Positions 3,127-33,452 of a DNA stretch of 64,000 nt are shown piece by piece. Under the pieces are notes generated by a model, which saw nothing but the letters and a program-made list of their open reading frames with translations, was not told the DNA's origin and made no database searches. Source of the DNA: Clavelina lepadiformis (taxonomy: Eukaryota > Chordata > Ascidiacea > Aplousobranchia > Clavelinidae); assembly GCF_947623445.1 (NCBI RefSeq), contig NC_135248.1:10726977-10790976 (forward strand), read 5' to 3'. Position 1 is the stretch's first letter; each line of letters begins with the position of its first letter. The position numbers and the translations under genes are program-made.

Positions 3127-5382
3127 TCAGAAGCGTATCCATTTAATGTATTGCACGTCATGCCTGTACGTCAACAAGCTACTGTATATATTATAAAAAC
3201 AATCAAGCATAAAGTATAATGCTTTGGCTGATAAACAGAAAGGATAAGGTAACATTGCAAGTCCATTGATGCTGTCATCGATTTCTGGAAGCTTGTCACT
3301 GTTGGGATCAGGCAGAAACTCGAACTGCTGAATCATTGAAACTAAATAGATGAAGATTTCCATTTGAGCGAGTTGCTTGCCTAAACAAGTTCTTGGCCCA
3401 AGTGAAAACGGAATCACGTGATTTGACTTAATAAACTCTACATCAGCGTCGATGAACCGTTCGGGTTTAAATTTTTCCGGTTTATCCCAAAATCAGGGTC
3501 ATTATGCACGGCCCAGATATTCGGCCCACCTGCATATATTCAGTGTTTTAACGTTAGCAGAATGAACGTTATTAAATTAATGTTTAGTACAACCTAAAGA
3601 GATTAGTTAAAACCTAAATCAAAGCAGATCATCGTTTGTACTCCTTTCTGTGATAATAACTTATTTATGTAGCCTACTATAGGTACAAGATGCGCAGACT
3701 CAAGTAGAATACCCATAAGTGAAAATGATACTAAAATTTGCATTTGGTGTTACATATTTTAAACATTTTAATTTTGAAAGAGTTGCGTGTATAGCTTACC
3801 GTAGTGCTTTTTGGTATAAAGTACCCGTTGAGCTCGGAGTCTTCATTTGTTTTATGTGGAAGAGCAATCGGAACTACAGCTCGAAATCTCATAAGTTCTT
3901 GCATAAATGCACTTGCTGTATATGGCATCTTAGGTTTCTGCGACAAGGTAGCATTACCATCGGATCCTGGAAAAATGCATTTAAGTTTTGGTTTGAAGAT
4001 GGGATAACATAAAAACATTCACGTGTTACCTAGAACATTCAAAATTTCTTCTCGAAGTTTCTTTTGCGCTTCTGGATAATGCAAACAGCAAAGTAGTGCC
4101 CAGGTTAACGTGCTTGATACAGTTTCAGTACCCGCCAAAAGGTCTCAAATGTAAAAAATTAATTGATGGTCCTGTTAAATGCAAGTTTTACTGTACCTTG
4201 ATAGATTGTAATAGATTTCTAATTTTTTTAATTAGTTATACAGTGCCTTTCGTTGTCGGCAAATACCATATTTAAAAATAGCATCTTAATTAGACCATTT
4301 TGTCCAAAATTTGTAGTCGATGTAACCAGCAAATTTATAAAATGCTGACCATGTAAACCTAAAAAGATACCTTTCAAGCCAGCAAGTGTTGCATTTAACC
4401 CTACCTTGAATAGTAGAAATGCGCACGGTTTTCTTAAAGTGTCGTATAAAACGACCTGAACGAACGATAGTTGAAAACAGGACAGTAGAAATAACTCCAA
4501 AGAATATAAAGTACGTGTGTGGATTGTGTGATTTCTATCTGTGCAGAACCCAGGGTATAATATAATTTAATCTAAAAGGTACAAGCACAAGGTTAAGAAA
4601 TGATTACTACACTGAACCTTTGTACATATTAGCAATAATATAAGACGATGCAGGTGGGTCACATGGTTTACAGATAAATAGGCCTAAAACAGATTTCCCA
4701 GCAACTAATTTAGAACGTTGCATGACAAACAATCAATTAAACAAATTCAAACTGATTATTGCTTTGGACGTATTACAGTAATTTAACCGGGATTAATACG
4801 GATATACAACAATACTACACATCGCACTGGCGTTTTCACTTGTAAATATGCTAGGCTAGCCAACAAAACTTCCGGCGTACGGTTGGCTACTGGTTCCTTG
4901 CTGGTTACTTATTCGCCGTCGAAGTTAGCTACTCGTTGCATTTTTACTTATTCAGTTACTTATTTGCAGTTTGCATGAAGATTACTTATCAAATCATTTG
5001 CCGTCTGTTGTAAAAGTCAAAACTTTGAACATATTAACAATGACAAGAGTAAGGTAAATTTAAATAAATTGATACAAGTTGAAATGAAACATCATAAAGC
5101 TTTAAAAGGGAATAAAACTCAAATAAATTAATACAAATGCAATTAAATTTTAAAGTATTTCTAAAAGTTCAAATAAATGCTTTCAATATCATGTTAATTT
5201 AAAAAATTATGAAAAGCAAACAAGTCTCAATATTTTATATAAAATCAAGTAACTTCTGAAAAAATTGAAAAAAAATAAAAAAGCTCAAATAAGTTTTATT
5301 TCTATAATCTTTAGATAGTCGGTAACTAGCACTATTCTCTCTTGTTCCGAATAATTTTGCCGTTTTTTTGTTTGTTATCGGT

Positions 5383-8358: not shown

Positions 8359-10515
8359 TTAAAGAGTACAAACTACGCAAACAATTTCACGACCAGCAAT
8401 ATATGGTTCACAAGGCAAAGAATGACATTCGATTTCAATCATAAATAAATATTCTCCGTGTTGTTCGCCTTCTGTGCCTGGCACAACTTGTGGTTTGTTA
8501 TCTACACATATTGGAGATGTCGTATGCTTCGCACTATAAGCATTTCCCATCAAGTAACCTGTATATTCTTCTGTCCATCCGTCTGGGCATACGTCTCGTC
8601 CAGGTATCATGAGCTTTATCAAATATACATAATTACCCTTTACGAACACGTTACCTTAGAACTTTTATGTTAATGGTGGTTGAACGGTGTTAACCTCAGT
8701 AGTATATTAATAACATAGTAAACAAAAACAAGATTATACAGCACGCTTAATGTTAACATTAATTTATCGACACGTGCTTCCGCGAGCTTAAGCTTGCTTC
8801 TTCGAGTTTAACAATGTCTTAAATTGGCAATATTTTACTCTAATGCTGTACTATGGCGTTAGTTTACTATTTTGTCACAGAATTTCTACCTGATTGTTTC
8901 TTCTTTCCGCCAAGCAAACTGCACAAGGAACCGAATGAAGGCTTAATGACTTACCCTCTGTAAGTGACAAGTCCAACAACGGGTTGATCCAAGTTGAATC
9001 ATGAAATTCAACCCCATATAATCTACCAGCACCTGTTTTGCAATGACAGAGTCCTAAACTTCTTGTAAATAATTATGCCACAAATTTCGTCAAACAGCCT
9101 CGTAAATGGAAAAATATTAACTTGTCTGAAACCCATCCAGATATCTACCAGGCTTGTAGGTAACGTTGTGATGAAGGCACAAGTATTGCGACGAACCACC
9201 TGTATGACTGTAATATGCTCCTGCTGCGTAACCTATAAAGAAAACAAGAACCTGATTTAACTGTACACTCAGGTAAATCCGACACTATAAACAAATAAAA
9301 AATATAAAAGCTTAGAAGAATGTTATAATATATACAATTAATAAGCGTTAAATTGTATCTTGAATTTAATTAATAATTAAACAATTAATAAATAGTGAAA
9401 TGTATTTTGATTAACAATATGCTATACAATAACTTTTTTGTAAGTTTAGATCTGGTGAAATACAGAAAGTTTAATCTTGGCAAAGGTTACCATCATAAAC
9501 CAATTTGTTGCTTGGAGAGCATTCCCGGCGACCCCATCTTATGTAAGGCACTCCCGTCTCTGCATAAAGTAGGCTTTGTACAGTAATGTTGATAAGTTAG
9601 CTAAGCAGGATACGAGATAAGCAAATTCGAAGCGTTTGTTCAAATCCTGCTCATAATCTTCAGTTTTCGGGACTTACCTGTTCTGGTCTGCAAGAAATAA
9701 ATTAAAAACAATAGATTACCTTTGACGAAATAAGCAGTCAAAAAATGTAAAAGAAGCTTCCTTAAAACTTAATAGACTTTGGTATATGCAATACAGCCTG
9801 TCTTGGATTTTACCATAAATTACAATATTACAGAAAAAACGGTATAGTCCTTCATATAATTTGCGTTGTACCAAGTAATGCCGTTAGTGACCACGTGTTG
9901 TTATAGTCACATGACATACAACAAACGGGAAAAACCCTTACCAATTGTACATCGTCGTTTGATGATGATCTTCTGCTGAGTAGATGGGGATGTTTTTCTG
10001 CTAATTTATCGGAATTCTTGTAAATTGCTTCCGAATTTCTGCGATAACGATTCTCAAGTCGAGCTGTCCTTTGCGACATTGCAAATATCTTTGTTTTCAT
10101 CCTGTAAAAGTCAAAACAATTTTATTAAAAATCAATGGTCTGTTTTAGTAATTTTAAACAAAGCAGTTTAACTTGATAGTCGATGGATTGAGCTCATAAA
10201 AGATTAAACACATTTGGTCAGTTCTAATCCATTCAAATATCATAGAGTTGTGCGGAAGTATATCACTAACTTATTGTTTTCACCAGGTAGCAAATTGTAA
10301 CACACAACACTCAAAACTTATTCAACTTACAATCGCATTGAGTTGTTGGCGTTGAGTGCGTACATTGCGCATCCAACACATAAAATGGCAACAACCAAGC
10401 AACAGAGTAGATTTGAAACAGATATTTTGCTGTAAGCAGCAAGTCGTGACATTGCTGAAGTTTCTCTGTGTGAGACTTTTGCAAGATAGTTGCTTGAGGT
10501 AACCTTAGGCTTCAT
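8359..10515 (-). CDS. Type II membrane protein with short-chain collagen C4/spongin-like domain, copy 1
   Basis: Seven exons on the minus strand: 10331-10515, 9942-10101, 9678-9687 (10-nt microexon), 9491-9559, 9122-9232, 8890-9032, 8359-8613. They sum to 933 nt, a clean 310-aa frame. Residues 1-34 are cytosolic and basic; 35-54 form one membrane span (LLCCLVVAILCVGCAMYAL); then a charged stem (MSQRTARLENRYRR). The C-terminal ~190 residues match the cysteine-rich domain of short-chain collagen C4/spongin-type proteins: YIRWGRRECS, GYAAGAYYSHTGGSSQYLC, PCAVC, LMIPGRDVCPDGW, SLPCEPYIAGRE and the terminal CVVCTL. No Gly-X-Y collagen repeat is visible. Expected on the cell surface with the C4-like domain outside; its role is unknown. 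Exon 5 seems to use a shifted donor (ACAA|GTTAAT) that preserves phase. Confidence 0.82.
9678..9687 (-). other. 10-nt microexon of copy 1
   Basis: ACCAGAACAG, flanked by TTGCAG upstream and GTAAGTC downstream on the minus strand. Without it the frame breaks between exon 2 (phase 0 end) and exon 4 (needs a phase 1 donor). The same 10-nt exon exists at the equivalent place in both paralogues. Confidence 0.8.
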
Positions 10516-12048
10516 GTTAGAAAGTTTTTAGCATTACACTTCGCCGTTAACATAAAACTGAAACTGCAGCTGCAATATATGTGAAAACTATATATGTTGA
10601 GATATCAATCCAGCTTAATCCAGTACAAACAGGAAATTGTTTTGAACGACAGACCAGACCTTTTACAAAATCTCTTGTTTGTATTTGACATGTATTGGAA
10701 CTTAAACTACCACGACTTGTTGGCGACTCAAACTTCACTTCCGTTTTTTGGTTTGATTCTTAATAGGTTGTTTTTTCGGCGCTTTCGATGATAACACCAT
10801 TAACGATTATAAAAGAAAGTTTGCTGATATTGTTATATAAAGACCTTAGTTTAAGAATGCTCCTTATTTTTGCAACATGTAATTCCCTTGTCAGGCAGGA
10901 TTACATTCCACTTACTTTTCCGAGTTGCCCAGTAGGCTATACACCTTTCTCAAAATAACCTGTAATATGTCGTTCGTGGTAAAGTACTTGTGTTGTGTAT
11001 AAGAAAAAATATCATCAAGTTTTTTTCCTTGATCAAGGTCAACAACTAAAGCTTTTAATTCATCGCTCTAAATATAAGGCGATATAGTACGTTCATTTCC
11101 CCTTGCCTTATATGGTCACGCGTGCGGCCTCAGTAATGAAGTATTTTAACGTCATAACGAGGAGTACTTGGCCAGCCTGCAAATTAATTGCACATATTTT
11201 CCTGAAGTATCCCTAAGGCTAGATATGGAGCACTTAATGCAACGATTAAAAGTTAAGCAAAACATGAAAAACCAGCCACAAACCCGCTCGCAACTGGCCA
11301 CTGAGTATAGCATTTATGATCACAAAGTAAAGTCGATCTATAGACTCTAACTTTTATAAACGAACAGTTCCTTACAAGGTCGACAATTAGAAGAAATAAT
11401 CGTAACCATGTAATTTAGGTTTCGTTCACGTGGTTATATAAATGTTTAATAAATGTTTGTCAGTACCAAAACTTCTTTATATCTACAAGTACAGTATTTT
11501 GATCAGAATCAAGTTTTTGTTGCTGCAATGCTATGCGTAGGCCATGGGTATACCGACTATCGAGGTTCGTCGTTGTCGTCGTCGTTACCGACCCTTTAGG
11601 TAATTAGGTTTGTCAGAAACAATTGGTTGTTATCAGTTATCATTACATTTTCTCGCATGCAACTGCCTTTTACAGTAAATGTAGCGTTTTCTTGAACGGA
11701 TGAACAACTTCGTTTATCTTGACCTGTAACCTATATTGTTGTTCGTTGTCCCAATAAGTGAGGTAACGTTTGGCACTACAAACAAAATGACAGTGAGTCC
11801 ATCTGCACTTCACAAAAGCAGGTTTCAGTTGGCATTTGTAAAAGGATGCGTTGTGCTGTCCGTTTAGATGTGTTTTTCGAAACCAGGACGAGAGTGATGT
11901 AAAAACTATCACATTAGGTTAGTGTTGTGGACTAGCAATCACTGAAAGCTAACATGAGCTTTATTCAACTGAAAGTTAGGATATTCCAACAAACACAGAT
12001 CGTAATATGACAATAAGATCATTATAACCGTGCTTAGTTCTTAACGGT
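10516..12048. other. Intergenic, no gene recognised
   Basis: Upstream flank of collagen-C4-like copy 1. Short open frames exist on both strands but none shows family motifs, codon structure or splice context that I can support. Confidence 0.5.
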
Positions 12049-12240
12049 TTGACCACCAATTGTGAACGTACTACACTGAAATGTCACCCAGGAGTCACTC
12101 AACGGTATCATTTTAGGAGGACCAAGAATCTACCATATCCGCTTGAAGAAGTGCGACAGTTTTTTGCAGGGTGCCACGTACGCGCGGAAGTGAAGCCCAT
12201 TCACGGCAAAATGACAACAAATCTTCAAGGATCTTTGTAA
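12049..12240 (+). mobile_element. Ty3/gypsy-type integrase scrap (fossil)
   Basis: The translated piece resembles the zinc-binding N-terminal part of Ty3/gypsy-lineage integrases (HPGVTQRYHF, then LPYPLEEVRQFF and a Cys/Glu-Lys-Pro stretch). It lies outside, and on the opposite strand from, the LTR pair that starts at 12542, so it is probably a separate, older insertion. It is an isolated fragment and is broken. Confidence 0.6.
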
Positions 12241-12541
12241 GGCAAAACGTTAAGCGTCAAACGTGGAAAGCGATATGGTGAAAACGCTACGTAAACGAAA
12301 TTTTGCAATAAACTATAAAGGCGCATCAGAAAGTTTATTTCTGAACGCTTCATTGTTATGTATGAAGCTGAAACTATTGTTTATTATAGGTTAGCTTGCA
12401 TCCATATTCTGCGCAATTACGAGAAACCCACTAATAAAATTAAAAAACTCATATTTTAGAGAACATATGTAAAAGTGAACAAAATCGGACCAAGGTTGAC
12501 ATCTTTAACCTCCCTTAATCTGAAAGTTTGAAACTTGATAA

Positions 12542-12662
12542 TGTTACCGGCCTTTTTCTAGTGCTGGTTCGAAGAGACCTGCAGTTAACTATACGATTGT
12601 ATTTCATAAACGATAAAAACTAGGCACGTCTACACAGCAGTACCGGTATCGGTAGAATGTCA
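12542..12662 (-). repeat. 3' LTR of the Ty3/gypsy-lineage fossil
   Basis: About 121 bp, TG...CA bounded on either strand (plus strand begins TGTTACCGGCC and ends GAATGTCA). It is about 93% identical to the partner repeat at 15484. Confidence 0.8.
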
Positions 12663-15483
12663 TAAAGCTTGACAAATCAAGCGTAAAACAATGTATCACT
12701 CCTCCCCCTCCAATTAATTTCGCTCTGACATTGTTTGAACATCGATCAGCATGACAGGCTATAGGCTAAGTTTACGGTAAATTCAACGACAAACTACGAT
12801 ATAATCACGAAGCAAACGTCATTACTTTTGTTACCAAGATGAATTTGTGAATTTTGAAGGAAACTTTTTCGACTACGTATGTTATAGTGGGCCACATAAA
12901 AAACAAGGTTTACAAAAACAATTCTTTAAACACAGCAAAATGGTGCAATAGTGACAGAAACTATGGTCATCACACCAATAAAAACAAACGAAAATCAAGG
13001 TACAGCATTTCTATGCAGAAAATGTAAACACAAACATTACATTACAAACCACAGCAAAATTTAAAAAAATTTGTTATAAAAGAAATTTATACATATGATG
13101 ACTATACCAACACAATAGCACAAACACAATAAAGAGCATCGGTGGGCTACAAATCACACTTCATGCCAATAACATTGCAAAAGGTATAAAAACGTGAGAT
13201 TGATAGCTAAAATAGGCTGTATATAAACGGATCCGAAATAAAATACCATCATATACTTGAAACTGTGGTATATAAAACGCAAATCATAGGAAAGTAGTCA
13301 ACAACATAAAATTAAGCATCACACAAACAAACAACTAATACGTTTCGACGTCTGGGTAACGATTAGGGCGACGTGGGCTTCGGCGAAGTCGACCGTTATT
13401 TCGGGAGTTACTAACGTTTTCTTCAACTTCAAACGGATACTTGTCAAGATTCAATTCGACGCGATTACAGTAGAATCACTTCTTTTGCTGCTCTTTGGCC
13501 TTCTACTAAGTGCGTCTTCATTGAAGTGCTTTGATCCAGACCGATTGATCAACTTAAAATCAAAATCAGCCAATATTTCAAATCAGCGCGCACATTGACT
13601 GTATGTTTCTTTTGCTGTCCACAGCCACTGTAACGAAGCGTGGTCATTGCGAAGAAGAAAAGGTGTGCCAAGATAACAACGAAATTTCTGCACCCCATAA
13701 ACAATTTCCATGAGTTACTTCCTCGTCGTGGAATAATTTCCTTCTGCTTTCGTTAAAGACCTACTTGCGTATGAAACTGGGTGCTCTTCACCATCTACAA
13801 TCTGTGACAAAACACAGCCAAGCGAAGAGTTTAAAGCATCTGTATCGAGGATGAACTGTTGCGAAGTCCGGGTATCTCAATACCGGGTTTGTTACGAGTA
13901 TGTCTTTCAACAAGTTGAATGAGTGTAAACATTTACCATTCCAGCAGAACTGTTATTGAGACTTCGTCAAATCGTACAGTGGGCCCGCAATTTTGGCAAA
14001 ATCTCTGACAAATTTGCGATAATATGATGCGAGTCCCAAAAACGGCTTACATCCTTTATCGACGAGGGCGCAGGCCAATTGGAAGCGGCTGAGATTTTCT
14101 CCGGATCGCAGGATACATCAGATTTTGAAACCACATGACCGAAGAATCTAACTTCTTCTTTGAACAAATTGCTTTTAGACGGTTTAAGTTTGAGGCCACC
14201 TGCAATTAATCGGGAAAGTACGTCGTCCAATTTGTGCAGATGATCTTGAAAGGTGCGTGCGAATATGATGATGTCATCCAGGTAAGCTAATGCAACATTG
14301 CATTCAACCCCATCGAGCACTATCCGCATCAAGTGTTGAAACGTGGCAGGTGCGTTGGTTATTCCAAAAGGCATAACATTAAAATTGAATAACCCTCGAT
14401 GGCACGTAAACGTTGTTTTTTCAAGGTCGTCTTCACTTATCGGTATTTGCCAGTAACCAGATTTAAGGTCCAGTGTGGTAAATATTTGCACCCCGAGAGT
14501 TGATCTAAAGTTTAGATTCTAAACTTTCATCGATCCGTGGCAAAGAAAAACTGTGCTTCTTAGTGCAATCATTGACAGCCCTGTAGTCAATGCAAAACCT
14601 TGCTTTGCCGTCCTTCTGCAAAATTAATTAGTAAAATATAATAAAAACAGCAACAGCAGATACGAGAGACCAAAAAAAAGGACAGGTCCTCGCTCTGGAC
14701 ACTCGAACGTAGACTGACTCCAAAGGTGACCTTTTTTCAGGAAGGCAACTACTCACGCCTGAAGCAAATGCGGGACACCAATCGAAAAAGGACACGCAAT
14801 GATTACGCGTTCGACAACATCGAAACACTGACGCGCCAAAAAGAACAAAATCAAATAAGACAGTGGACAAAAGAAATCAGGGTGATACAACACTAACAAA
14901 ATAACAGCGTGGGTAAACACACGAAAAACAAATAAACAACGGTGCGAAATATCATATTGCGACACAAGTGACCATCAGCCTTTCTGCTTCATGTTTGTTA
15001 CGCAGTCCAGCTATCAAAGCGTTATACAAGACGTCATTCTTCGTGCCTTCATCTTCCGGTTTCGGGTATGCAATTGCTCCCAAATTGACAAGAGCGTTGA
15101 CGTAACTTCGATTCGTTTCACCTAAAGCTTGGGTTCTTTGTATAAGCTCTTGTTTGACCTTGTTACATCGAAGTGAGGAACAAGCAACTTCATCAGCTTT
15201 GGACTTTAGTTCTTCGTAATTCATGGTGACTACCTCCGCACCATTGCATTTATTTCCAACTTCACCTCTTCCGGTAAACTCAACATAATAGCATATTTTC
15301 GAGCAGCTGCTGTTGCGTTCACACTGTCGCAGAAACTTTCAAACGTGGATAAAAACGAGCTAAAATTTTCTCCAAGTTCAAACTTCGGAGGAGGGTAAAA
15401 AAATTCATCGTGGATAAAACCTGGTCCAGATCACTTTCTTTATACACGTTTTGAAACTGCAGGTCCGGCCGTGCTCTCCAAAA

Positions 15484-15602
15484 TGTTACCGGCCTCTTTC
15501 TAGTGCTGGTTCGAAGAGACCTGCAGTTAACTATCGGATTGTATTTTAAAAACGATAAAAACTAGGCACGTCTGCCAGTAGTACCGGTATCGGTAGAATG
15601 TC
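15484..15602 (-). repeat. 5' LTR of the Ty3/gypsy-lineage fossil
   Basis: About 119 bp, with the same termini as the repeat at 12542. It is next to a TGGAGAGCAC-like primer-binding region on its inner side. Confidence 0.8.
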
Positions 15603-15926
15603 ATCATCACTGGTAGTAGCAAGAGACAAAGCGCAGCCAAATCGATCGAATTAATTTCTCTCTATGTCGTAGACTCAAAGCAACCATATTTGTTGAAACG
15701 TTACATAAGTATGTTTGTCAAACTTTTTTATGTTATGTTTTCAATTGAAAAGTGCAAATTTTTTATATTTTCATTTCTTCATGAATCCATTTCGGTTTAT
15801 TCCTACCTGTTTACAGCTCGGATTCTACATTGCGGTCAGAGTGCCTTGTTGGTTAGTCCCACAAATAATTAAATCCGCATTAAAAATATTTGCTAAATAA
15901 AGTTTAATTAACGAGAGGGTGCTGAC

Positions 15927-16327
15927 TAGGGATGGGTCGATACGAACCCGAATAGATTCGCCGAATAGCGCCTTTATGGAAGATTCGGGCGAACACGAAT
16001 ACCAACAATGGCGAATCCGAATACAATATTACTTATAAATTAATTGAATTTTGTTAAAAATGATGATCTAATTTCCGGACAAAGCTAAACTAGATTCAAT
16101 AGTACTTACAAAACGATTTTGCTTTTTCAATCGTTTTTAAACACTATTTCTCGAAAGAAAGCGGTTTGTTTATCGATTACGTCATTTTACAAGCAAGGCT
16201 GGACAGATTTTGGATGAAATTTTATTGTTTGGTTTTAAAACGAATAGATTCGGGATTTGTTCGTGTGGACCTTCATGATATTCGGGTTCGCACGAACCCA
16301 AATAATCTTTCTCGCGGCACATCCCTA
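15927..16327. mobile_element. hAT-type MITE, copy A
   Basis: A 401-bp non-coding element with termini TAGGGATG...CATCCCTA and internal ATTCGGG/CCCGAAT motifs repeated towards both ends. It is flanked by GTGCTGAC (15919-15926) and GTGCCGAC (16328-16335), an 8-bp target duplication with one mismatch, as hAT elements make. The same family occurs at 43629-44039 in inverted orientation. Confidence 0.85.
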
Positions 16328-16704
16328 GTGCCGACAGATCAGCTAAGACACTAAACTCTTAATTAAGAGAACGAAACTCGAATATTCACCTTCAGAACTA
16401 TTGGACGTCAGATTATTATATTATATTACATTTAAGCTATTATTAAAATAAAGTGGCGTGACAAATCAGATGAAAAGAAATGCAGAAAAGCATGCAAAAG
16501 CAATAATATACAGCAATTAAATAATGTAACAGAAATGTTAAAATAGTTGACAATTATAATGTAATGGATTCAATTTGATAAAAAAGTAAATTGACCATTT
16601 ACAATATTATATTCACTAAAAAGTTACCAGCAGTATACGTAACATATCACTTCATTCTACTTATGTTCACTCAAACGTTGAAATAAGTTGGACAGCGAAA
16701 TATC

Positions 16705-18508
16705 TTACAGAGTACAGACCACACAGACCAGCTCACGACCAGCAATATATGGTTCACAAGGCAAAGAATTACATTCGATTTCAATTAGAAATAAATATTC
16801 TCCGTGTTGTTCGCCTTGCGTGCCTGGCACAACTTGCGGTTTGTCATCTACACATATTGGAGATGTTGAATGCTTCGCAGTATGAGCACTTCCCATCATG
16901 TAACCTGTATATTCTTTTGTCCATCCGTCTGGGCATATGTCTCGTCCAGGTATCATGAGCTGTAAAAGTTTATTTCTCAAGGAAATTGTCAGGTAAATAA
17001 AGCGAGTTAAGAACCTTTAGTCATATTTTTACTTGATTACTTCGTCTTTGGGCCAAATAAATTGCGCATGGAATTGAATGAAGGTTCAGTGAGTTGCCTT
17101 CTGTAAGTGATAAATCGAACAAAGTGTTGACCCAAGAGGAATCCCGATACTCAACTCCATACAATCTTCCACTACCTGGAAATTTGAAACCATACTGCAT
17201 GTAAACGTAACAACAATTTAATTTCAGATAATTCATGTATAATATACGTGAAGTGGTCATCAGAATATCTATATCTTTGGAAAATTGTTAGATCTGACAG
17301 GTTACATTGCAAGTTGGGTTTTTACCTTGCCATCCATCCAGATAGCGACCTGGTGAATATGTAACATTGTGATGAAGACAGTATTGAGACGAACCACCTG
17401 TATGACTGTAATATGATCCTGCTGCGTAACCTTGAAATATTTGTATTTAGCAGAATGAATGTAGGACTCTTTGGCTAGCTTTGTTTTATAACACTGTTTA
17501 CAATGTTAACAGAGGTTACCATTATACACAAGTTCGTTGCTTGTTCCAGAGCATTCACGTCGACCCCATCGTATGTAAGGCACTCCCGTTCCTGTATAAA
17601 TGGGAATAAATGTTTTCCACTATGCTTGATAAATATTTACAATAGATTGAGTTGTTCTAAGCAATCCTTGTCTCCGCTTCATCAAAACTGCCATCACGCA
17701 AAAAAAATCTGCTAAACCTGGGATAAACTTCAGTTTTCGATTTCTAACCTGTTGTTGTCTGAAACAGATAAATGCAAATCTGTAGGTTGGATATATAATT
17801 AATCGTTAGAGATAGGACTATTTTTCAATTTAAAAGCAATCTTTGCTATAATATTGCACACATCTAACACAACTGATTGAAGCTGCTGCAATAACAAAAG
17901 TTAAACTTACCAATTGCGTATCGTCGCTTGATGGCGATCTTCTGCTGATGCGATGCGGATGGTTGTCTGCTAAATTTTCTTCTTTCTTGGTAAATAGAAA
18001 GGTTTCAGAATTTCTGCGGTAACGATTCTCGAGTTGAGCTGTCCTTTGTGACATTCCAACAAGTTTTGCTTGCATTCTGTGAAATTAATAGTTCTGAAAT
18101 TAACAGTGCTTAATATGCTAGAAAAGTTTTTTTCTTAAAATATGATAATATATAATTTTAAATTCAATATTCTCTTGATTGGGTCAGAAATTATTAAGAA
18201 ATTCTTATATTAACATACAAGCTAATGAATATTTGTTAATGTTACGTATAAAATGTTAACGATACATGCAACATCGTTAATATAAAAAACAGCTCGTTAA
18301 CTTCCAATATCATTTTTACTTACAATCGCAGAGAGTTGTTCGCGTTAAACGCATATATTGCACATCCAGCACATAACAAGGCAACAAATAGGCAACTCAA
18401 AAGATTCAACAGAGAACATTTGCCATAAAGAAAAGAACGTAAAATTGCTGACTTGTCAACGCTGGAGAGTTTATTAGAATTATTCCTCGTCGCGATGATA
18501 CGTTTCAT
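16705..18508 (-). CDS. Type II membrane protein with short-chain collagen C4/spongin-like domain, copy 2
   Basis: Exons 18324-18508, 17911-18076, 17749-17758 (10-nt microexon), 17520-17591, 17326-17430, 17033-17175, 16705-16959. They sum to 936 nt, giving 311 aa. Same plan as its neighbours: basic cytosolic N-terminus, one membrane span (LLSCLFVALLCAGCAIYAF), stem MSQRTAQLENRYRR, then the C4-like domain (YIRWGRRECSG, GYAAGSYYSHTGGSSQYC, LMIPGRDICPDGW, CVVCTL). One difference stands out: where copies 1 and 3 have PCAVC/PCAIC this copy has PCAIY, so one of the paired cysteines is lost. All splice borders I assign are GT-AG and the frame is open throughout. Probable cell-surface protein; function unknown. 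Confidence 0.82.
17749..17758 (-). other. 10-nt microexon of copy 2
   Basis: ACAACAACAG between TTTCAG and GTTAGAAA on the minus strand; same length, position and phase as in the other two copies. Confidence 0.8.
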
Positions 18509-21036
18509 TGCAGAAGTTTACAAACTGACTTAATCTTAGTAAAAAATTTCAGCTTTGTCCTGAAATTGGACGTGTGCACTTTTTTAAACTTAATTAACAA
18601 CCTAAAATATCACATAAAATTCACCCATTACGGTATATAAGGTATATAAGTTATAGGTATTTTAAGTATAAGTCATACAACTACCAACAAGACTTAAATA
18701 TAAGCTTTAGCAAAACATTTTGTGCAAAAAAATTTGACGGATATTTTACAACATATTTTTTCGAAAATTTGAAATACTTTGGTGCTTTGATTATGTAAAT
18801 TATAGCATATATTATATTAAATTATTATCATGTGATTATTGTAAACTTGTTTTAAAGCATAATAAATTGCCCTAATGTTACGTGAAAGTAATGAAAATGC
18901 TTTTTAACCACTGTGAATTTTAGAAAAACAACTATTATTTTTATTTTAATTCTAGAAAAAACAACTATTATTAATTTTATTTTAATTATAATAGGCTTAC
19001 TTCATATATTTTTCATTACACTGATCACTGAGGTGTACACAACATTTTGTAATAATATATGTATCTGTTAAACATAAACTCCGATAATCCGTTAATATAC
19101 ATCCCACTACTTCTAGTGTTTTGTACAATAAGGCAAAGGTTATCTGTCACACAAGGGCTTCCATGAAATGGGTCAAGTGTAACCACCCCTTTCGTCGAAG
19201 GTAACCATCTTTCTTTGTATGTTATTGGTTGTAATGAACAAACTTGGAGAATGATTTACGCTGGTTTTTGTTTTAGAAATCTTTTTGTGACCTTACCCTA
19301 CTGACAACTTGTCCCACTTTGTCCTGCTATATAAACGTTTCAATTCTAGTCTACTTTTTGTTATTACTTTAAGTATAAGCACATCAAAAACCTACTCGCT
19401 TTCGCAAATTTAAAAGCACTGAAGTTAGTTTTCTGATAAAAGCCATTTATATAGATTTTTGATAGCTTATTGAAAGACAAAAAAAAAACAATTTCCCGCA
19501 AGGAAAATTTCGAACCTCTTTACTTTGGATGATATTTGTTGTTTAAAATATTTCAACTAAAACCACCAACATGAATCAGACGTCCGTTTGTTGTGTTATG
19601 AAACATGGAAAATATGTGATAAGATTTTATCAGGATGTGCAAAGTTGGTGGATTCGTTTCAATTTTGGTGATTTTTGTATTAGGCATGCAAACAGCTTGT
19701 CTTCATTTGATGCATTTTTGTGCTGTGTTAATTTTGAAGGTACAACGTTAAATTTGTTTAGATTACCTAATTTTAATCTTAACAATCTACAAACATTTAC
19801 AGCAATTAGTGCCTGCGATATTTTCCAGTCAAAAACACGCTTTTTATCCCAAAACAAAACATTGACACCGTCATTCTCATGACTTACAAATTTACTTTAT
19901 ACCGAAAACTTTTACTAAATGTTTAAAGACAATAAAGACCTTTTTCTTCCTTATTATCGTAATTCTCATCTTTATTATATTCTGTTTCAACAAAATACTG
20001 CACCTCACGGTCTTTGTGTTACAAAAGGTCGAGTTATGCTGCTAGCCAACAATTTTTTCTCCAAAATAGCGTTGCAACAAATTTGAAATAGGCCTACAGT
20101 GAGATTTTACCAAATGTTTAAGACCCTTTTAAAAATTTTGTAAATTTTCTATTGCTATAATTTTTGTTTATGTATTTGTATATATATTACCTACGGTTTC
20201 AATTTCACTGAGCATAGTATTGAAATCCATTGCCACGCAAGAAAATAAAATCAAAAATTGCCTGGGATGGATATTTTTCAGTGTGACTGTTGCGAAAGTT
20301 CACGTTTTGTAATTCTTTGTTTATTAACCATGCTGACAGGCATGTCAATCTAGCACTGCACTTTGATATGTTTTTAGACGTATATTTAGATGTATTCCAA
20401 GAGGTATTTTTAAGTGTGTATGTAGATGTATTCCACGCATATTGTTGCGGCCATTCTTATACACAATGTGTGACTGCGTGTTTGGTATTAATAATTTACC
20501 GATATGCCACTTGTGACGCCTTATATTGTTTTCAGTAAGTTTTCTACACACGTACGCGGTTTACGCTATTACCTACAACTCCTTCTTGAGGCATGTTACG
20601 CTGCCCGCAATTTCTAATCTCACACCTTAATTAAAGTTCATTGCGGTGTGGTTTTGTGGACAAGAGTTTATTTTTATTCTACGTTTTGGGTTTGTGTAAG
20701 AAAGACTGGTGTTTATATTGACGGACAATGAAGAACGTCGTACTAGCCTACACATCCTCGAGTAAATGTTATTAAAACTTAGAAGAACAGAGATTGGTTA
20801 TGTGACTAGCCGTAAGTGCGGGATATACTGAACTTATAAGTGTTGCAACCTCCTGTTGATTCATTTTCAACAAATAGATTTAGATATTATGTTGTGGTAT
20901 CTGTAATCATAAATCAAAACACGTTTCGTTGTTTGGAGAAGATCTTTTCCCTTAGGTGATTGTTTTAAGGCCACTTTATGTTTTACTAATTTTTAAAAAG
21001 TTTCATTTGCATTACGTTCAGTTATATGCTTTAGCT
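18509..21036. other. Intergenic, no gene recognised
   Basis: AT-rich. It contains a tandem duplication near 18919-18990 and a low-complexity stretch near 20370-20440 with repeated GATGTATTCCA. A 103-codon open frame at 19571-19882 has no recognisable motif, and I do not call it a gene. Confidence 0.5.
18919..18990. repeat. Tandem duplication of about 36 bp
   Basis: Two adjacent copies of a TAGAAAAACAACTATTATT unit followed by a TTTATTTTAATT tail, differing by a few bases. Non-coding. Confidence 0.75.
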
Positions 21037-21495
21037 CAGTGGTTCTTAACCCCTGGGTCGCGGAGCCTTCGAAAATGGGTCGCGACCGAGTCCTGGCTAC
21101 GACACTGAAAGTGGATATTTCTTTTATCTGTTCTATTCTATACGATACGCGAGAGACCTCCGAAATAAGTGTAATATGCTCAAAATTCAATGTGTGTAAT
21201 AATGGGGCTGACGCTGAGACCACACGCGCGCCTGAAATTCTCCGAGGTGCGTTCCACGCAGTCGTATCGCATATCAACATGGCTGCCTATATGTATAACC
21301 TCAATTATGTAAGCCAGTTCAATGAGATGCGCCCAAGTTGTTCTGTGTTTGCGTCGGAAGCAAAATAACAGGGTTTCTTAGTTTTAATCGTGGAAGCTTC
21401 CAAGTTTGTTTGTTACTATTACGTCACCACTTGGGTCGCCGTCGCTCCCACAGGTAAGATTTTGGGTCGCGGCAAGAAAAGATAAACAACCACTG
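21037..21495. mobile_element. hAT-type non-autonomous element
   Basis: About 459 bp. The left end is CAGTGGTTCTTAACCCCTGG; the right end, reverse-complemented, begins CAGTGGTTGTTTATC. Near both ends the text GGGTCGCGG/GGGTCGCGACC recurs. CAGTGGTTCTTAACC is a classic hAT terminus. The 8-bp flanks (CTTTAGCT and GCTTAGCC) match at five of eight positions, so the target duplication is worn or chance. Open frames inside it do not resemble a transposase. Confidence 0.7.
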
Positions 21496-22837
21496 GCTTA
21501 GCCATCAGTAAAGCGTATAGATCTCGTCTTTAAAAAAATTCCTTTCAACGGCGACATGTTTAACCGTTCTAAAGAATTTGATTGCAATTGTGTTTGTGCC
21601 TTCGTGTAAACGTGTATGCTTACTTTGCTTTTGGCAATCCTGTGTATTTTTACTATGCGAAATTGTTCACGGTGTTAAAGACAAAATGCCTTCCTTGCTT
21701 TTTCGTTCCAAGTGTAAATTTACCAAAACTTTGACGGTTTGAATGTGCTCCATGTTAATGATAATGTATTTCACAACCGTATAGAAAGTTTATTTAACTA
21801 CTTTTTGCTATCGTATCGTAAAGAAATTTTTACTATACTGCACCTACAGTCTACAGTATATGACATTTGCGTTGAAACGTTAAAGCTATGCGCTCGATTA
21901 AAAAGAACGTAACACGTTGCCGATACACATATAGATATTTTCATGTTGTATTATACCGTCTTGTACTTTTAAAGTAGTTTTAGTATTTCATATTTTAGGT
22001 TAGTTTGTACATGTTTGTATCCTGTTGCTTGTACACGTTTTCAAGCACTTTATTTCGAACCTGTCCTCCGCTAGCATGAAACACCAAGCCCTTTGAGTTG
22101 CTGTAGAAAAAGTAAGTATGCTATGGTAAGTAAGCTTTTAAGCTGGGTTTGGTGCCCGACCGAGAAGCTTATGCTGTTCTTTGCCAGTAAATAAATTTGG
22201 TTTTGACTGATTTGACGTTTTGACTTATATGACGGGCCGTTAGCGATAAAACACCTGAAAGAATTTTAATGTGACAGTATCTTGTAGCGCATCTATTCTA
22301 AGCCATAAATTTACATTTTTGAACTGCTGTAGTGAATTTAAATCGCTTGCTTTGATCCACTTAAAAACCTCAAATATTCTCAAAAACCTTTTCTATTACT
22401 TTCTCATTCCAACAAACAACATGATCTTGGTAAGCTATATCCTTTAACTTTTTAGAATTTATCAATGCTACAACCCAAAAGAATCTCGATTAACGAAAGG
22501 TTTGATTAAAATGTTCACATACCGCATATATTTCGAACTCGTATGTAATATTTAGACCGACAAAGTCCTAAATTTGTAAATTAGTAACAAGTATATACTT
22601 GATTGCAAAACTAAAATTACAAATAGATCAATTTATGATGAAAACAAGGCTAAGCCATTTTCGAACAGTATTATTACATTTATTAGTTCAAGAAATGCAT
22701 TATAGAAAATGCATATTGGAGAAGATAACACAAAAGTTTAACTTTCTTAGAGTAAATTTCTTAGTGTGATAGAAAGTTCGATGATATTTGTAACTACTAT
22801 CATAGCATTAATCGTTAGTTTTGTTTGATTTCATAAT
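21496..22837. other. Intergenic, no gene recognised
   Basis: 3' flank of collagen-C4-like copy 3. I see no supported exons, repeats or RNA genes. Confidence 0.5.
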
Positions 22838-24884
22838 TCAAAGAGTACAGACCACACAGACCAGCTCACGACCTGCAATATATGGTTCACAAGGCAAAGA
22901 GTGACAGTCAGTTTCAACCATGTACAAGTATTCTCCGTGTTGTTCGCCTTCTGTGCCTGGCACAACTTGTGGTTTGTTATCTACACATATTGGAGATGTC
23001 GTATGCTTTGCACCATAAGCATTTCCCATCATGTAACCCGAATATTCTTTTGTCCAACCATCTGGGCATGTGTCTCGTCCAGGTATCATGAGCTTTATAA
23101 AAAGTTTTGAAGCTTTTTTGCTACTATAGTTTAAAAGTTGCGCCAGCTTACAACGATGTATAGCTGCTATATTTATTTTTCTTAGGTGAAGGTTTTGAGC
23201 TATTTATTACCTGGTTGCTTCTTTGTCTTGCTAAGCAAATCGCGCAAGGAACAGAATGAAGACTTAATGAAGCACCTTCCGTAAGTGACAGGTCTAATAT
23301 TGAGCTAACCCACGACGAATCTCGATACTCCACACCATAAAATCTACTTAGACCTAAGTTGAGAATATAAACAAAAATAAACCAAGTAATTATTCAAGCA
23401 TCATTATCAAATACCATGTTAAGTTTAATATCTATTTCGATTTCATATCCCACAAGCAATGAAGGATTTTTTAAATAAATTTCCTTTTTTATAACTTTCC
23501 AAAAGATATCAGAATCAGATGCTGTGATAAGTGGTATTTTTTTAAAAACCAAGATTTTTAAACATTTCTTTCTTCTAAAAATTATAAGAATGTATTTCAC
23601 CGCAACTTGCCTTGAAATCCTTCCTGGTATCTACCAGGACTGTAAGTAACATTGTTATGAAGGCACAGATATTGAGATGGTCCACCCGTGTGGGAGTAAT
23701 ATGCACCAGCTGCGTAACCTTACAAATATGAAAGCAAATCGTTAACATTCTAAAAAAAACTTATTTGATGCGTTGGAAAAATTACATAGTCATAGCTGCT
23801 TATAGGAAGCAAATATTAACTGTTGCATAAACTTAAAACATTAAGAGCTTAATATGCAAAATATGTATCTGGATCTGTACGGACCATTATAAACCAACTC
23901 GTTGCTTGGTCCAGAACAGTCACGCCGACCCCATCTGACGTAAGGCACACCTGTTCCTGTGTACGAAAAATTAGCATTGTCGATAAGCTTACGAAAGGAC
24001 TTTTGGAATATTGCTTGATCAGAAGTTGGCATAAGCTTCATTTCTTTACAACTGACCTGTTGTGCTCTGCAACATAATAAATAATAACAAAATCAACGAC
24101 TCTTTTTAACATTACGTGCTGTTTTAGACTAAAAAAACACATAAAAAAAACATTGAAGTTTATTTTTAACCAAATTTAAATAATCAAGATCGACCTAAAG
24201 TTTCATACAACTTTTTCATAAAAAGGTCTTTAAAATTTCCCAAACTAACTAACGAAGTTTAACAGATACCAATTGCACGTCGTCGCTTGATGGCGATCTT
24301 CTGCTTAAGCGATGTGGGAAGTTGTTTACTAATTCTTCTTCTTTCTTGAGTGGCAGATCATTTGAATGTCGACGATAACGATTCTCAAAACGAGCTGTCC
24401 AATGCGACATTGCAGTCAGCTTGACTTGCATTCTGTGTAATTTGTATATGGAGTGTACACTGATGTTTATATTCAAATATACAAGCAAATTTATTATTTT
24501 ATTGCTTACAAACTTTGTATTTATATAGTAGTTCATTTGGTTACTAGCTACTTCTAAAGCTACTCTAAAATGCATTTATTATACATTTTAACAATAGACA
24601 TGTCTAAAATTGATAATAAAAGTCATTCTAGTCATTATTGTCAACAGATACAATACCGAGTCTATTTGACACAATACTTACAATCGCATTGAGCTATTTG
24701 TGTTTAGTGCGTATAACATTGCACATCCAACACATAATACTGCAGCAGCCAGGCAACTCAGTAAACCGAAAAAAGAAATTTTTCCGTAAGCATCTGGTCG
24801 CACATTAACTGACTTGTAGCCACTTGAAAATTTCGTAGAAGACTTCATTGATAAAATATCCCGGTTCACTGAAGAAGATATCAA
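22838..24884 (-). CDS. Type II membrane protein with short-chain collagen C4/spongin-like domain, copy 3
   Basis: Exons 24682-24884, 24270-24432, 24057-24066 (10-nt microexon), 23885-23956, 23611-23718, 23211-23353, 22838-23092. They sum to 954 nt, giving 317 aa. The N-terminus is longer than in the other copies; then a membrane span (FFGLLSCLAAAVLCVGCAML), a stem with ENRYRR and a Ser/Arg-rich SRRSPSSDD, and the C4-like domain: YVRWGRRDCSG, GYAAGAYYSHTGGPSQYLC, PCAIC, LMIPGRDTCPDGW, SLPCEPYIAGRELVCVVC. Exon 5 appears to end at a GC donor (CAAG|GCAAGT) where copy 2 has GTAAAA; this keeps the frame. All conserved cysteines of the domain are present. Function unknown; likely extracellular adhesion or matrix contact, by domain analogy only. 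Confidence 0.82.
24057..24066 (-). other. 10-nt microexon of copy 3
   Basis: AGCACAACAG between TTGCAG and GTCAGTTG on the minus strand; required for frame, as in copies 1 and 2. Confidence 0.8.
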
Positions 24885-27523
24885 ATTATGCGGTAAACTA
24901 AGCTTAATTATGTTTACGCTTAACTTATAAAACCTTAAATTTGCAACATTTTCTTGTAGTTACAGGCAGGTATACTGTATGTTATTAAATAGTTTCAAAT
25001 AAGATCTCTGTTTGATATTTCTGTTTTCCTGCATTTATGCTTCGTCTTATAAAATCTGCCTCGATGGCCTTTTACTCCATTACGACTTGTGAGTGGCCAT
25101 CTAACCAAAATGACCTTAGTTGATAAGCTGGTTTGCTCACAGAAGATTTTTCGATCCTAAAATACTGTGTACCTCTATACGCCGATGTCTTTCAAACTCA
25201 ATAAAGTCAGAATCCTGTAACTAGACATCATGAGGGTAAATTTTTTAAACTTAAATCAATACTGCTTAAAAACCAAATAACCCGAAAAAATATTCTGAAA
25301 TAAAAAGATTACTAACGGATCTTCATTTTTGCCGTTTTTGTGCGGTGGGATTAGTCCTCTGATGCGTATAAGTTATTATTCCATAATTGCCAACAAATTT
25401 GCTTTAATGTTTGTCTCAGTGAAGTAGAACGTTTAATGGGCATTTCAGTTTTCTGTTGTCTGAGTCCAATTACTTTGAAATAACAGTTGTCCAAATCTAA
25501 ACTAACGACATCCTCAAAGCAATGAGAGTTTCGCTAAATGAGAACTTGATCCGTATACGCAACATAGTTAAATAGCTGTTGACAAAAAACAAGACCAACA
25601 GAATAAGAAAACATTCTTTCATCAAATTAAACAACAAAAAGCTTAAAATTTTTTTTCTTTGAGTCATTCGTTTTGAAGCGCTTGTCTTACCTTACATGGT
25701 TACATGCACAGAGTTTAATTTGTTTTTCAATTTTTAATCAAATGTGCTTATATTAAACCTATAAATTATACTTACACATGCGGATTTCTTCTAATATACC
25801 CCCAGGATAAATATGAGGCGTTTAAAACTTCTCGTAGTAATTTTTGAGCAATTATAAGCTCAAAATTTAAAAACATCCTCATACATCACCAATTAGCGTT
25901 AAAAAGTTAATTTTTATCCAAGCGCTGACTGGCGCTAAAGGCCCCTTGACAATATTCCACACAGAACAGAGTTATTTAAACTTGAAGTCCTCGCCTATAG
26001 CTGCAATCCAATCTCTGAGACCAAATTGTACAGTAAATTGTAAATATTGAATGTCATATTGGTTTTGCATTTATACAATACGGCCCCCGATACAATTAGT
26101 TTCTACATAAGCAGGTTCAATAATAATAATTAATCAAAGTGTTCGGCAACTTGTACTGTATTATGATTTTGTTATCTTTGCCGTCCCAAATTTGAATGAA
26201 ATTAATTGTTACGCCACAATTTAACTTATAGCACCAAAAGATGTTATCCTAAAAGAACTGCTGTTTTGTGATTTTCATTGTGCTGTAATGTGACAATGTA
26301 ATTATTTTCATATGAAAAACATACATAAACCGCGCTAGATTTTAGTAACTTTCAATGATCTTTTTAACGTTCTCACATCTATTGGGACAGGTAGAACATG
26401 TTTTTCACACGATTAATCTTTATACATTTTATCGGCATTTAGCGTTTGTTTCTTTGCGTATTTTTCTCGTGATCACTTTTGTTTTACGGCCCGCAATCCA
26501 ACGGAATTAAAGATCCCTGATTGTACAGAATTGTTGCTCAACCAATGCAAAAAGAAAGCTTATAACCCAACTACAATAGCCTATGTCAGACCAACGAATA
26601 ATTATTTAAATTCTGTCAAATTACAATGTTGTATTTGATTTTTTCTAAAGTAATAAAAGGGTACATAGCAGCTTTTAGGAAACTTTGATTTACGCAAAGG
26701 CTTAACAATTTTGCATGTGCTTTCCGTAGAAACTATATAGCCGACGGTGTATCTAAAACAGAAGTTAGATATAAGTCTGTAAATTATTTCAAACCTCATA
26801 TATCTTTGCATTAAAACGCTTGAATGCGTATATGATATAATTAGTCACCGTGAGTACCCAAGGAAATTATGTTGCAAGGCAGAACGCGGACGACTTTACA
26901 TGCGTCATCAGGCATTATGTCAATAGTGCTATGCAATACGTTGGAAACTGATACGTCCTAATTAGTTTCCTGTTTCTCGTTGGGGCTCATACTGGCAGGA
27001 ATCTTGTAAGAATTATGACTTCGGGACGCCATATAGCAAGCAGATCAAGTCAATACCCGTCTTTCGGTGACCGTGTGCTACACAGACAAAATAGGGATTG
27101 GTAAACGTTAACGTAATTTTTGAAATCCAGTAATTTGACGACCGAAACAAATACATAAGTGATTTGAATAACTTTTTATGCATATTGATATACTTAGTTA
27201 GCATTAATATAAGTAGTTAGCATTAGTATAAAGAAATCAGCATCAGCAATCAGTAAGGTGTGCATATAGCCAAAGCAATATTTCTGATTAAGCAGATTCA
27301 TTGTTTATTTGTTATCGTATATATGTTATATTTTTTATATTAAATAGGTATGAAAAATATTTCAATAAATTTTTCCCTACGTTTAGATATGAAATCTACT
27401 TCAATATAATTACAGTTACATTTAAAGCTTATTATTGTTGATAACGTTGTGCTAATAAATTACATAGAACTTTCGATGTGAATGTAGTAACGTGATTATA
27501 GGATATAGCTTTAGAAATTTACA
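24885..27523. other. Intergenic between divergently oriented genes, no gene recognised
   Basis: Shared upstream region of collagen-C4-like copy 3 (minus) and CALHM-like copy 1 (plus). AT-rich, with no supported exon or mobile element termini. Regulatory sites for both genes would be expected here, but none can be named from sequence alone. Confidence 0.5.
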
Positions 27524-29111
27524 ATGGCAAAACAGCTTGGAGCCGTTGCCAAGAATCTTCAAGAATATTCCGGCGTAGCTCTTAACACTGGAATTGTGGC
27601 AGTGACAGGCGCTGTCGAGCAACTGACAACACTTGCTGTTTATCGTTGCCCGTGCGTCTCAGTATCAGAACTTGGCCCGAACTGCACTGACGTTACCATT
27701 GCTGAGAGTGGCAGATGCAGCAACCTCCTGAATTTGGGATACGGTCTTTCGTTCATCATAGCACCAGCTATTGGTCTTTTTCTTTTTGGAATGGTTTCCA
27801 ATCCCAAAATGTGGAAAATTCTAACCGGTTGTTCAAGGAAGTTTAAGCGGCAGCTTCACGAATTGCAAACAATACTTGCCGTACTAGCTTTGGTTGCTGC
27901 AAAAGCCATCATAGCTCCGATTACGTGGGTTGCCTTTGCTTTACTTGATGGAAGGTTCCTGGCCTGTGCTATTACGCCTTTACCTTATGACGTGGAACTT
28001 CCCACTTCTGAATATGCTACTTGCGAAAAGGTAAGGACGTTATATTGATATAATAAAGCATGCACGTATAATGACGATTGAAGTCGAGTTAAGTCGGCTA
28101 TCGCAGTATTTATAAAAAAATGCAACCTGTAAAACAGGAGCTCTACACTTATGGTGTAACATAAATGAAGTTTTATGCTATTATTCCAATGGAACAAACT
28201 TGAGCGCTTCAAAGACCGAGGCGTCTGCGTAAACACGCGCATTAACAGTTTCCGAAATGTATATTATGCGCACGGAGGCTTGATTGGCGATCACTTTGCT
28301 TGAGCGCTTACGGCATGAGTTACCTTCTTGGATATTTCGGCATATTTAAAATGAATTTTGCGTGTGACGAGACTGAACAAAAGTTTTTGTATTGGTAATC
28401 TTGAAGCCCTGCACTATACGACTTGGTCCGACTTAACACCTATTTCGGTTACTTATAGCAAAATACCTATAACTATATGTTGCAAATGTCAGGTTGCCAT
28501 AGCGAAAACGATCTACAACTCTGACGACTATCACGACAAAAGAAGCTTTTCTCAATTTGTTGGTTGGGTCATTGTGGCTGGACTGGCTGTAATCGGCGTC
28601 ATCGTCTATTCAGTCACCCAGTGCAGATCCCCTTTGACCTATTACCACGCCAAATATTACAAACTCTACAGGTGACATGAAGAAAACGAGGTTACTGATG
28701 AAATGAACAAAAAGGTGGGTTCCTTTCTTTCCTGTTTGTGTTGCTATTTTCCTAGTTACTTGGCATTTGCAAGTAAATCTGTCGTCTTGATTGTCAACCT
28801 GTAATTCCTTTTACTAAATTTGTTTTACTTAAAAAAAGGCTCAAAAAGATGCGGAAGCAAATGTTATAAAATTTATGGAAAAGAGACGATCCAAGGAACT
28901 TTGGGATCGAATATCAATGGTCTATGAGTTTCATCGCGATGAGAAGAGTTTAGCTTTGTATTCCTATCTTCATGAATGGGTCCTGGAGGAAGAGAGGAAA
29001 GCAAATGGGGAAGGCGCTCTTCCGCTTGACATTGAAGAGCATGGACATGGAGAAAATGTAGAAGTTAACGCCGAAACTTTAATACCCAAGTACGCACAAA
29101 ATTCCTTGTAA
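27524..29111 (+). CDS. CALHM4/5/6-like channel gene, copy 1, with in-frame TGA
   Basis: Calcium homeostasis modulator family: large-pore membrane channels with four spans and a cytosolic C-terminal helix. Exons 27524-28030, 28493-28714, 28839-29111. Exon 1 has the extracellular RCPC pair, a span FIIAPAIGLFLFGM and IIAPITWVAFALLDGRFLAC, close to vertebrate CALHM (LAPLTWVAVALL). Exon 2 encodes span 4 (VGWVIVAGLAVIGVIVYSV) and SPLTYYHAKYYKLY. Exon 3 encodes the WDRISMVYEF...LYSYLHEWV helix shared with CALHM4/5/6. The odd point is TGA at 28673-28675, directly after KLYR, where copy 2 reads GCA (Ala). The downstream frame stays open to 29111. Either the copy makes a protein lacking the C-terminal helix, or it is a young pseudogene, or this is an allele. 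The frame otherwise matches copy 2. Confidence 0.85.
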
Positions 29112-32100: not shown

Positions 32101-33452
32101 GACAAATACTACTTTATGCTATTTGTCGGTTTACCTTAACACAATTAGACGTTGAGTTGTACTGGAAAATGACTTATCGAAATGACATATGCAATTGCTT
32201 TGAGTTAACAACTTTATCATCAAGAAGAAGGTTAAATACAGTGATATAATATAATACTATACGGTATACTTTGGCCAAATATGGAACAGCGCAGGCAACA
32301 GCAAACAACAGACCTCCAACTTAATCAGTGACAAACTTGCAAGATTAGATCATTAACAACCTCGCCCTAAGAGACAATCTTATACTTATATTGAGACAGA
32401 TCCGTCCAATGTACCCCATGTAGCGAAATACAAAGAAACGCAATTTTCACAGATCGCATATAGCGCGTGTACACAAAACTAAATCAAATGTTAAAAAAAT
32501 GACAGAAGTGACGTTTTTTTCAATCGCATATAAACGGGGTTGACAACTTGACACCAGTCTCTACTCAAAAATAAGGACGAAAGAAGAATACTACCTCAAA
32601 CAGTGCACAACAGAAGGCAATCAATGTTCTTAAAAAAAACAAGACACTTTATGCATGTTCTTAATTTTGGTAGAAAATGGTATACTAAAAGTGCCGAAAT
32701 GCCCAAAATAGGAACCTCTGCCCTAAAAATGAGACAAAAATAAGGACGCAAGTGAAAATAAGGACATTTCCAAGAAATAAGGACAAAAATATTTTCAAAG
32801 ACAAAGACCTTCAAAATAAGGACAAACAAGAAATAAGAACGGTATCGTATGGTAAGGTATGATAACCCTGCATATAGGAGACACTTTTAATTCTTGGAGC
32901 CATTTAATCTCGGCAACGGTAATTGATAAATCGTTACCTTATAAGTAATAAGGTAATTAACAGGGCCAGGGACGTTTTTATAGTATGACGTCAGATAACG
33001 TGATGCGCATAATTTAGTTTATTTCCGGCTGCACAGTAATAAAAACTTTTGGGTAGTAAACATTGCACACAGCTGTACAATGTACATTACAATAGCAATC
33101 GAATCGCATTACGAAGCAATCGTCGTCCTGAATTTTCTGCTTTTTACACTTGTTTAATTATTACAGTTTATTGAAAAGAAAGGTAGGAAAATGTTTCTTA
33201 GATTATAACTATGGGTACGTTGACGGCAGACAACAGCTACAGCTTTGATTGACAGCTGACTTCGAGTTTAAATAATACGATAACTTATTTGCCGTCTCAT
33301 GGCTGTGTCAATGATGTCCTATCATTGCATTTTTATTGTTCTTATATTTTGTAACAGTGTTATGTTTTCTTCAACGGAAAATAAAGTTCTAAAAAACTGA
33401 GGTTGAACTAAATCAAAAAGCAAAAAAAGTATAACAATCATATCACAGTATT
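29112..33452. other. Intergenic between CALHM copies, no gene recognised
   Basis: More than 4 kb with no supported exon. A 129-codon open frame at 30891-31280 has no family motif. A diffuse AATAAGGAC repeat patch lies at about 32560-32850. Confidence 0.5.
32560..32850. repeat. Diffuse repeat of AAATAAGGACA-like units
   Basis: At least six imperfect copies of AA(A)TAAGGAC spaced irregularly over about 290 bp, upstream of CALHM copy 2. Spacing is uneven, so this is not a clean satellite. Confidence 0.6.

Follow-up and report, generated by a model that had tools for sequence, protein, structure and literature searches.

Can an exon of ten nucleotides, found at the same place in three neighbouring genes, be a genuine part of their transcripts, and what would it contribute to the proteins that they encode? 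The question is raised by a tandem trio of paralogues on the minus strand of a 64,000-nucleotide stretch of the Clavelina genome (C9:10726977-10790976, hereafter the window), for which a preliminary description had proposed a conserved 10-nt exon. The reading favoured here, at a probability of roughly 0.83, is that of a constitutive microexon in a tunicate family of probable single-pass membrane proteins carrying a spongin-like C4 domain at the C-terminus. The ten-base exon is probably real, and also probably of a kind that gene finders easily miss.

The tandem trio and its predicted ten-base exons

Re-reading of the sequence located the three 10-mers on the minus strand at the places claimed for them, each preceded by AG and followed by GT (Table 1). 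In all three gene models the end of exon 2 is in phase 0 and exon 4 has to be supplied with one leading base, and because the microexon joins the one to the other, it keeps the frame; its place directly before the C4-like domain likewise agrees with the preliminary description. The complete models with the microexon measure 933, 936 and 918 nt in genes 1, 2 and 3, each divisible by three, which bears out the lengths given earlier for genes 1 and 2 but not the 954 nt given for gene 3. The gene 3 model starts from the ATG at 24848 and takes a GC donor after exon 5 (23611-23718), where the apparent site reads CAAG/GCAAGT and a nearby GT alternative leads, by eye, to a stop.

Table 1. Predicted genes and exons of the trio, in positions of the window
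Feature	Position	Strand	Basis or remark
Gene 1, 7 exons, 310 aa	8359..10515	-	Model predicted from sequence
Gene 1 exons	10331-10515, 9942-10101, 9678-9687, 9491-9559, 9122-9232, 8890-9032, 8359-8613	-	Predicted model
Gene 1 exon 2	9942..10101	-	Phase-0 end about ten residues past dibasic site (RR)
Gene 1 microexon (exon 3) ACCAGAACAG	9678..9687	-	TRT + first base of E
Gene 1 exon 4, start of C4-like domain (TGVPYIRWGRREC)	9491..9559	-	Gene model
Gene 2, 7 exons, 311 aa	16705..18508	-	Model predicted from sequence
Gene 2 exons	18324-18508, 17911-18076, 17749-17758, 17520-17591, 17326-17430, 17033-17175, 16705-16959	-	Predicted model
Gene 2 microexon (exon 3) ACAACAACAG	17749..17758	-	TTT + first base of G
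Gene 3, 7 exons, 305 aa	22838..24848	-	Model predicted from sequence
Gene 3 exons	24682-24848, 24270-24432, 24057-24066, 23885-23956, 23611-23718, 23211-23353, 22838-23092	-	Predicted model
Gene 3 microexon (exon 3) AGCACAACAG	24057..24066	-	STT + first base of G

Together with its splice dinucleotides, the pattern A(C/G)(C/A)A(C/G)AACAG (AGASMASAACAGGT) matches the window three times, in every case at one of the 10-mers and between exon 2 and the C4-like exon of one tandem paralogue, and its mean count in 100 dinucleotide shuffles of the window is 0.00. The bare 10-mer matches four times against 1.35 expected, and four or more matches occur in 7 of the 100 shuffles; alone it is weak evidence, the strength coming from splice sites and place combined. 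When the pattern is extended with GTAAG, there are two matches in the 209-Mb genome against one for a backwards control pattern, so that genome-wide the extended pattern alone is near chance. One of these two matches is gene 1, and the other (C1:28283439) was rejected as a family member, the 8 kb inspected showing no convincing homology to the genes.

The window also holds other features. Between genes 1 and 2 there is a 92-nt direct repeat, 95% alike (12540-12631 and 15482-15573), and within this repeat pair (12540-15573) lies a reverse-transcriptase match (13970-14518), the whole resembling a broken retrotransposon. A cytochrome P450 C-terminal exon (PF00067) is found at 3127-3492 on the minus strand, with P450-like N-terminal sequence, by eye, near 7800. 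On the plus strand, 27515-28048 and 33435-33971 are parts of two tandem calcium homeostasis modulator (CALHM) genes (PF14798). Further on, an open frame of 490 aa resembling CCA-adding/poly(A) polymerases (PF01743; 39309-40781) is followed by a GRIM-19 match (PF06212; 41049-41522).

Eight copies with the same predicted exon

The genome searched comprises 209.06 Mb in 95 contigs. A protein search of it with the C4-like part of gene 2 (E up to 0.01) and a second with the C5 copy (E up to 1) each found at least 29 matches, all of them falling at one set of eight loci or in a detached tail of copy C1a. Five members thus join the C9 trio, on three further contigs: two on C7, two on C1 and one on C5. 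Exon 7 of C1a is interrupted, and the matching C-terminal tail lies about 3 kb away (C1:9959824-9959952). A 158-nt probe found no processed retrocopy preserving the spliced form, and no relative was confirmed in viral or prokaryote contigs.

Intron phases of 2,0,1,1,1,0 are common to all eight models, C5 being without one phase-1 intron (exons 5/6). In every predicted model the microexon stands at the same place, entered in phase 0 and left in phase 1, preceded by AG and followed by GT, so that canonical sites, position and phase are all conserved. Its length is 10 nt in the three C9 genes, 22 nt in both C7 and both C1 copies and 19 nt in C5, each 1 mod 3 and each inside the microexon limit of 27-30 nt or less. 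The claim of a conserved microexon can accordingly be widened to the same predicted exon in eight of eight copies, but the length of 10 nt is not family-wide, the other five having 19 or 22 nt. The encoded residues are TRT, TTT and STT in the trio, and IDETMLT, IAETTFT, KEPLTPS (twice) and GEFTRT elsewhere. The five models outside C9 were drawn with the microexon already expected, the splice-score ranking being independent of that expectation, and members of one cluster are not mutually independent.

For this ranking, site models were trained on the ordinary exons of other clusters (24 to 35 sites) and applied to every AG...GT pair of 3-40 nt in any frame, 22 to 109 candidates per intron. The microexon is the top-scoring candidate in all eight introns. 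Out of 500 shuffles, the true score is reached by 4, 4 and 27 for genes 1 to 3, by 5 and 9 for C7a and C7b, by 0 and 3 for C1a and C1b, and by 0 for C5. Gene 3 has the lowest splice-site score of the eight and stands only moderately above chance. Among 31 control introns of the same genes, one reaches the weakest true score (10.4) and none the second weakest (14.7); the same two scores are reached in 16 and 3 of the 204 tiles, each of 350 nt, taken from the rest of the window, and the C1b span read antisense yields a best candidate of 15.0 against the true 15.9. Because tiles and antisense strand reach comparable scores, a single gene is unconvincing; each gene taken singly is suggestive, and the four clusters jointly are strong evidence. 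In gene 2, moreover, a 31-nt version of the exon scores 13.5 against 14.7 for the 10-nt form.

The conservation of the surrounding sequence was also compared with MAFFT. Within the trio, the microexons are in register, with 8 of 10 identities per pair, and the introns have pairwise identities of 15-38% upstream and 25-42% far downstream. The 25 bases directly before the microexon share 13-18 identities, and the 30 columns after the donor 17/30 between genes 1 and 2 and 6/22 and 6/30 in the other pairs. Genes 1 and 2 share the stretch CGAAAACTGAAG just past the microexon (9650-9677 and 17719-17748), and there is also a match between genes 2 and 3; the shared stretch is a possible splicing element or a possible leftover of duplication. 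Since gene 3 shows it less clearly and inspection by eye revealed no counterpart in the other clusters, it is not put forward as a splicing enhancer. In the C7 pair, the microexon has 19/22 identities against 563/802 in the upstream intron and 85/88 in the far downstream intron, and all three microexon differences alter the residue; in the C1 pair, the figures are 21/22 for the microexon and 28/30 just downstream. In these recent pairs, microexon conservation is no higher than that of the surroundings.

The reading frame and alternative splicing models

In all eight models, skipping of the microexon causes a frameshift and a premature stop 4-88 codons past exon 2, and on account of this need of the frame in every copy the microexon is likely always included. 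The same behaviour, with a length indivisible by three in every copy, would also be expected of a regulated cassette microexon, whose inclusion would give the full protein and whose skipping a truncated or decayed product. The microexon acceptors of genes 1 and 3, which at 2.1 and 3.2 bits are weak beside the training mean of 9.8, would suit such regulation, but the exon 4 acceptors of these two genes are equally weak or weaker (1.8 and 0.2), and a microexon that is not a multiple of three can be constitutive, as has been reported for MPC1 exon 2 (4 bp). An on/off switch of this kind is thought unlikely.

Less probable still is that the microexon does not exist, exons 2 and 4 being joined in frame by other donors or acceptors or by a retained intron. 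Each of the eight genes admits between 2 and 27 in-frame models of this kind. The frame of gene 1 can be restored with a CAGAG tandem acceptor lying two bases downstream, a weak site (-7.1). In gene 3, the best microexon-free model ties with the canonical pair (0.6); in C1a, the best one outscores that pair (5.3 against 3.2); and in C1b, the 90-nt intron 2 has an open frame, its retention scoring 17.0-19.8 against 4.6. However, no single model is common to more than three of the eight genes, and in the five genes other than gene 3, C1a and C1b the best one falls below the canonical donor-acceptor pair, whereas the microexon is found and ranks first in all eight. A longer exon made by reading past the GT of the microexon was also rejected: gene 2 stops at once (TTTG-stop) and gene 3 two codons on (STTGQL-stop), so that extension downstream is closed in two of the three C9 genes, gene 1 remaining open for fifteen residues in all.

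That the three 10-mers are chance occurrences, or a noncoding recursive-splicing point (AG/GT) inside the intron, is scarcely credible, for although the window tiles hold gene-3-grade candidates and the C9 and C7 exons end in CAG/GT, the form of a ratchet site, a direct join of exons 2 and 4 breaks the frame in eight of eight and the C1 and C5 microexons end in CTG/GT and CCG/GT.

Protein context, splicing and evolution of the probable microexon

With the microexon included, the protein models predict one order of parts. First comes a hydrophobic segment, which begins at residue 26-36, then a dibasic site placed 4-10 residues ahead of the point where exon 2 ends, and after it the microexon residues and the C4-like domain. 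The hydrophobic N-terminal segment suggests a membrane anchor. The microexon would add a Thr/Ser-containing linker of 3 to 7 residues, leading from a dibasic stalk that may be cleaved to the C4-like domain; both this cleavage at the dibasic site and any glycosylation of the linker's Thr/Ser residues are speculation.

The presumed likeness of the C-terminal domain to C4 and to spongins is one of sequence motifs, of an internal repeat and, for the spongins, of cysteine number. The Pfam C4 family (PF01413) does not figure among the matches of the eight proteins up to E 1; the Pfam matches listed belong to unrelated families (E 0.025-0.21), none of them convincing, and the one match among solved structures in the PDB, a 50 kDa outer membrane protein (E 0.47), is not a convincing relative either. 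The domain has a weak internal repeat (best E 0.013), and the label 'C4-like' would stand for this repeat and the presumed resemblance in motifs. Cysteines number ten in six of the eight copies, nine in gene 2 and six in the incomplete C1a model. A collagenous Gly-X-Y tail is absent from all eight models, the longest run being 2-3 triplets.

Spongin short-chain collagens, reported from Ciona, have seven shared and three spongin-only NC1 cysteines and, like the present family, a C-terminal domain with a weak internal repeat, and the ten cysteines of six copies equal theirs in number (PMC5395295). Unlike the spongins, the family has a hydrophobic N-terminal segment and is without a Gly-X-Y tail, and on the latter ground it should not be filed as spongin collagen (PMC5395295).

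As to splicing, the predicted microexon would be present in the mRNA and constitutively included. The introns of the family are short, with a median of 139 nt over 47 introns and a range of 100-254 nt in the C9 trio, and because of this shortness recognition across introns is favoured: each flanking intron would be recognised as a unit (intron definition), possibly aided by a general U1/PRPF40 route, and the pairing of splice sites across introns may be enough for the microexon to be spliced without the dedicated help that the preliminary description names. In C. elegans, PRP-40 is reported to be required for alternative, not constitutive, exons, and two microexons independent of it have introns down to 49 nt, a 58-nt intron having relieved the need (PMC8378409). 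The Clavelina exon may therefore still depend on some general microexon factor. The microexons dependent on PRP-40/PRPF40A resemble the present one in size (27 nt or less) and in a dependence set by exon and intron size, but are described as alternative and mostly neuronal, whereas the Clavelina exon is predicted to be constitutive (PMC8378409). A genome search for SRRM_C (eMIC), which was blind to introns, gave a single match, scoring 22.7 bits against a cut-off of 27 (positions 30-56 of 67), and such sub-cut-off matches also occur in 2 of 14 control genomes, both of prokaryotes.

Several known systems offer comparison. Human MPC1 exon 2 is a 4-bp microexon reported as constitutively included, and shares with the Clavelina exon a length that is not a multiple of three and, as predicted here, constitutive use; it differs in belonging to an unrelated gene with long introns, against 100-254 nt in the trio, and its splicing has been attributed to exon definition that works through 67 nt on the upstream and 6 nt on the downstream side (PMC9929638). 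Plant microexons of 15 nt or less are similarly very short, conserved with gene structure and often unannotated, but are backed by 990 RNA-seq sets, the Clavelina exon being predicted from sequence (PMC8831610). In a tunicate, the Agrin Z microexons of Ciona were likewise missing from the annotated gene model, but are described as Nova-promoted, neuron-specific and alternative (PMC12445529). In the passages covered, one tunicate splicing paper has the word 'microexon' in its reference list alone and does not name Clavelina (PMC13326754), and among the matches listed in a search lying mostly outside subscription journals, no paper concerned a microexon in Clavelina or in any C4-domain gene.

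The lengths themselves point to an order of change. In a midpoint-rooted tree of the C4-like part, built from the eight copies alone without an outgroup, the C9 trio (10 nt) groups next to the C7 pair (22 nt), and C5 (19 nt) together with the C1 pair (22 nt) stands on the other side. The fewest changes suggest an ancestral length of about 22 nt, with a loss of 3 nt in C5 and of 12 nt in C9, the frame being kept each time. As the other five copies have 19 or 22 nt, the trio probably carries a shortened form, and its microexon would have shrunk to 10 nt within the C9 cluster. A bolder proposal, in which a frame-essential microexon shrank by threes (22 to 19 to 10 nt) to near the animal exon size minimum and gives a membrane-anchored C4-domain family its one on/off switch, is unlikely.

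Microexons of this size and behaviour are already known, and the size series among paralogues adds modest interest. If the exon is real, any annotation leaving it out would put all eight proteins out of frame at one common point, and the gene models of relatives in other ascidian genomes may be wrong in the same way. The paralogues with 22, 19 and 10 nt in one genome would then be natural variants for the effects of exon length on splicing.
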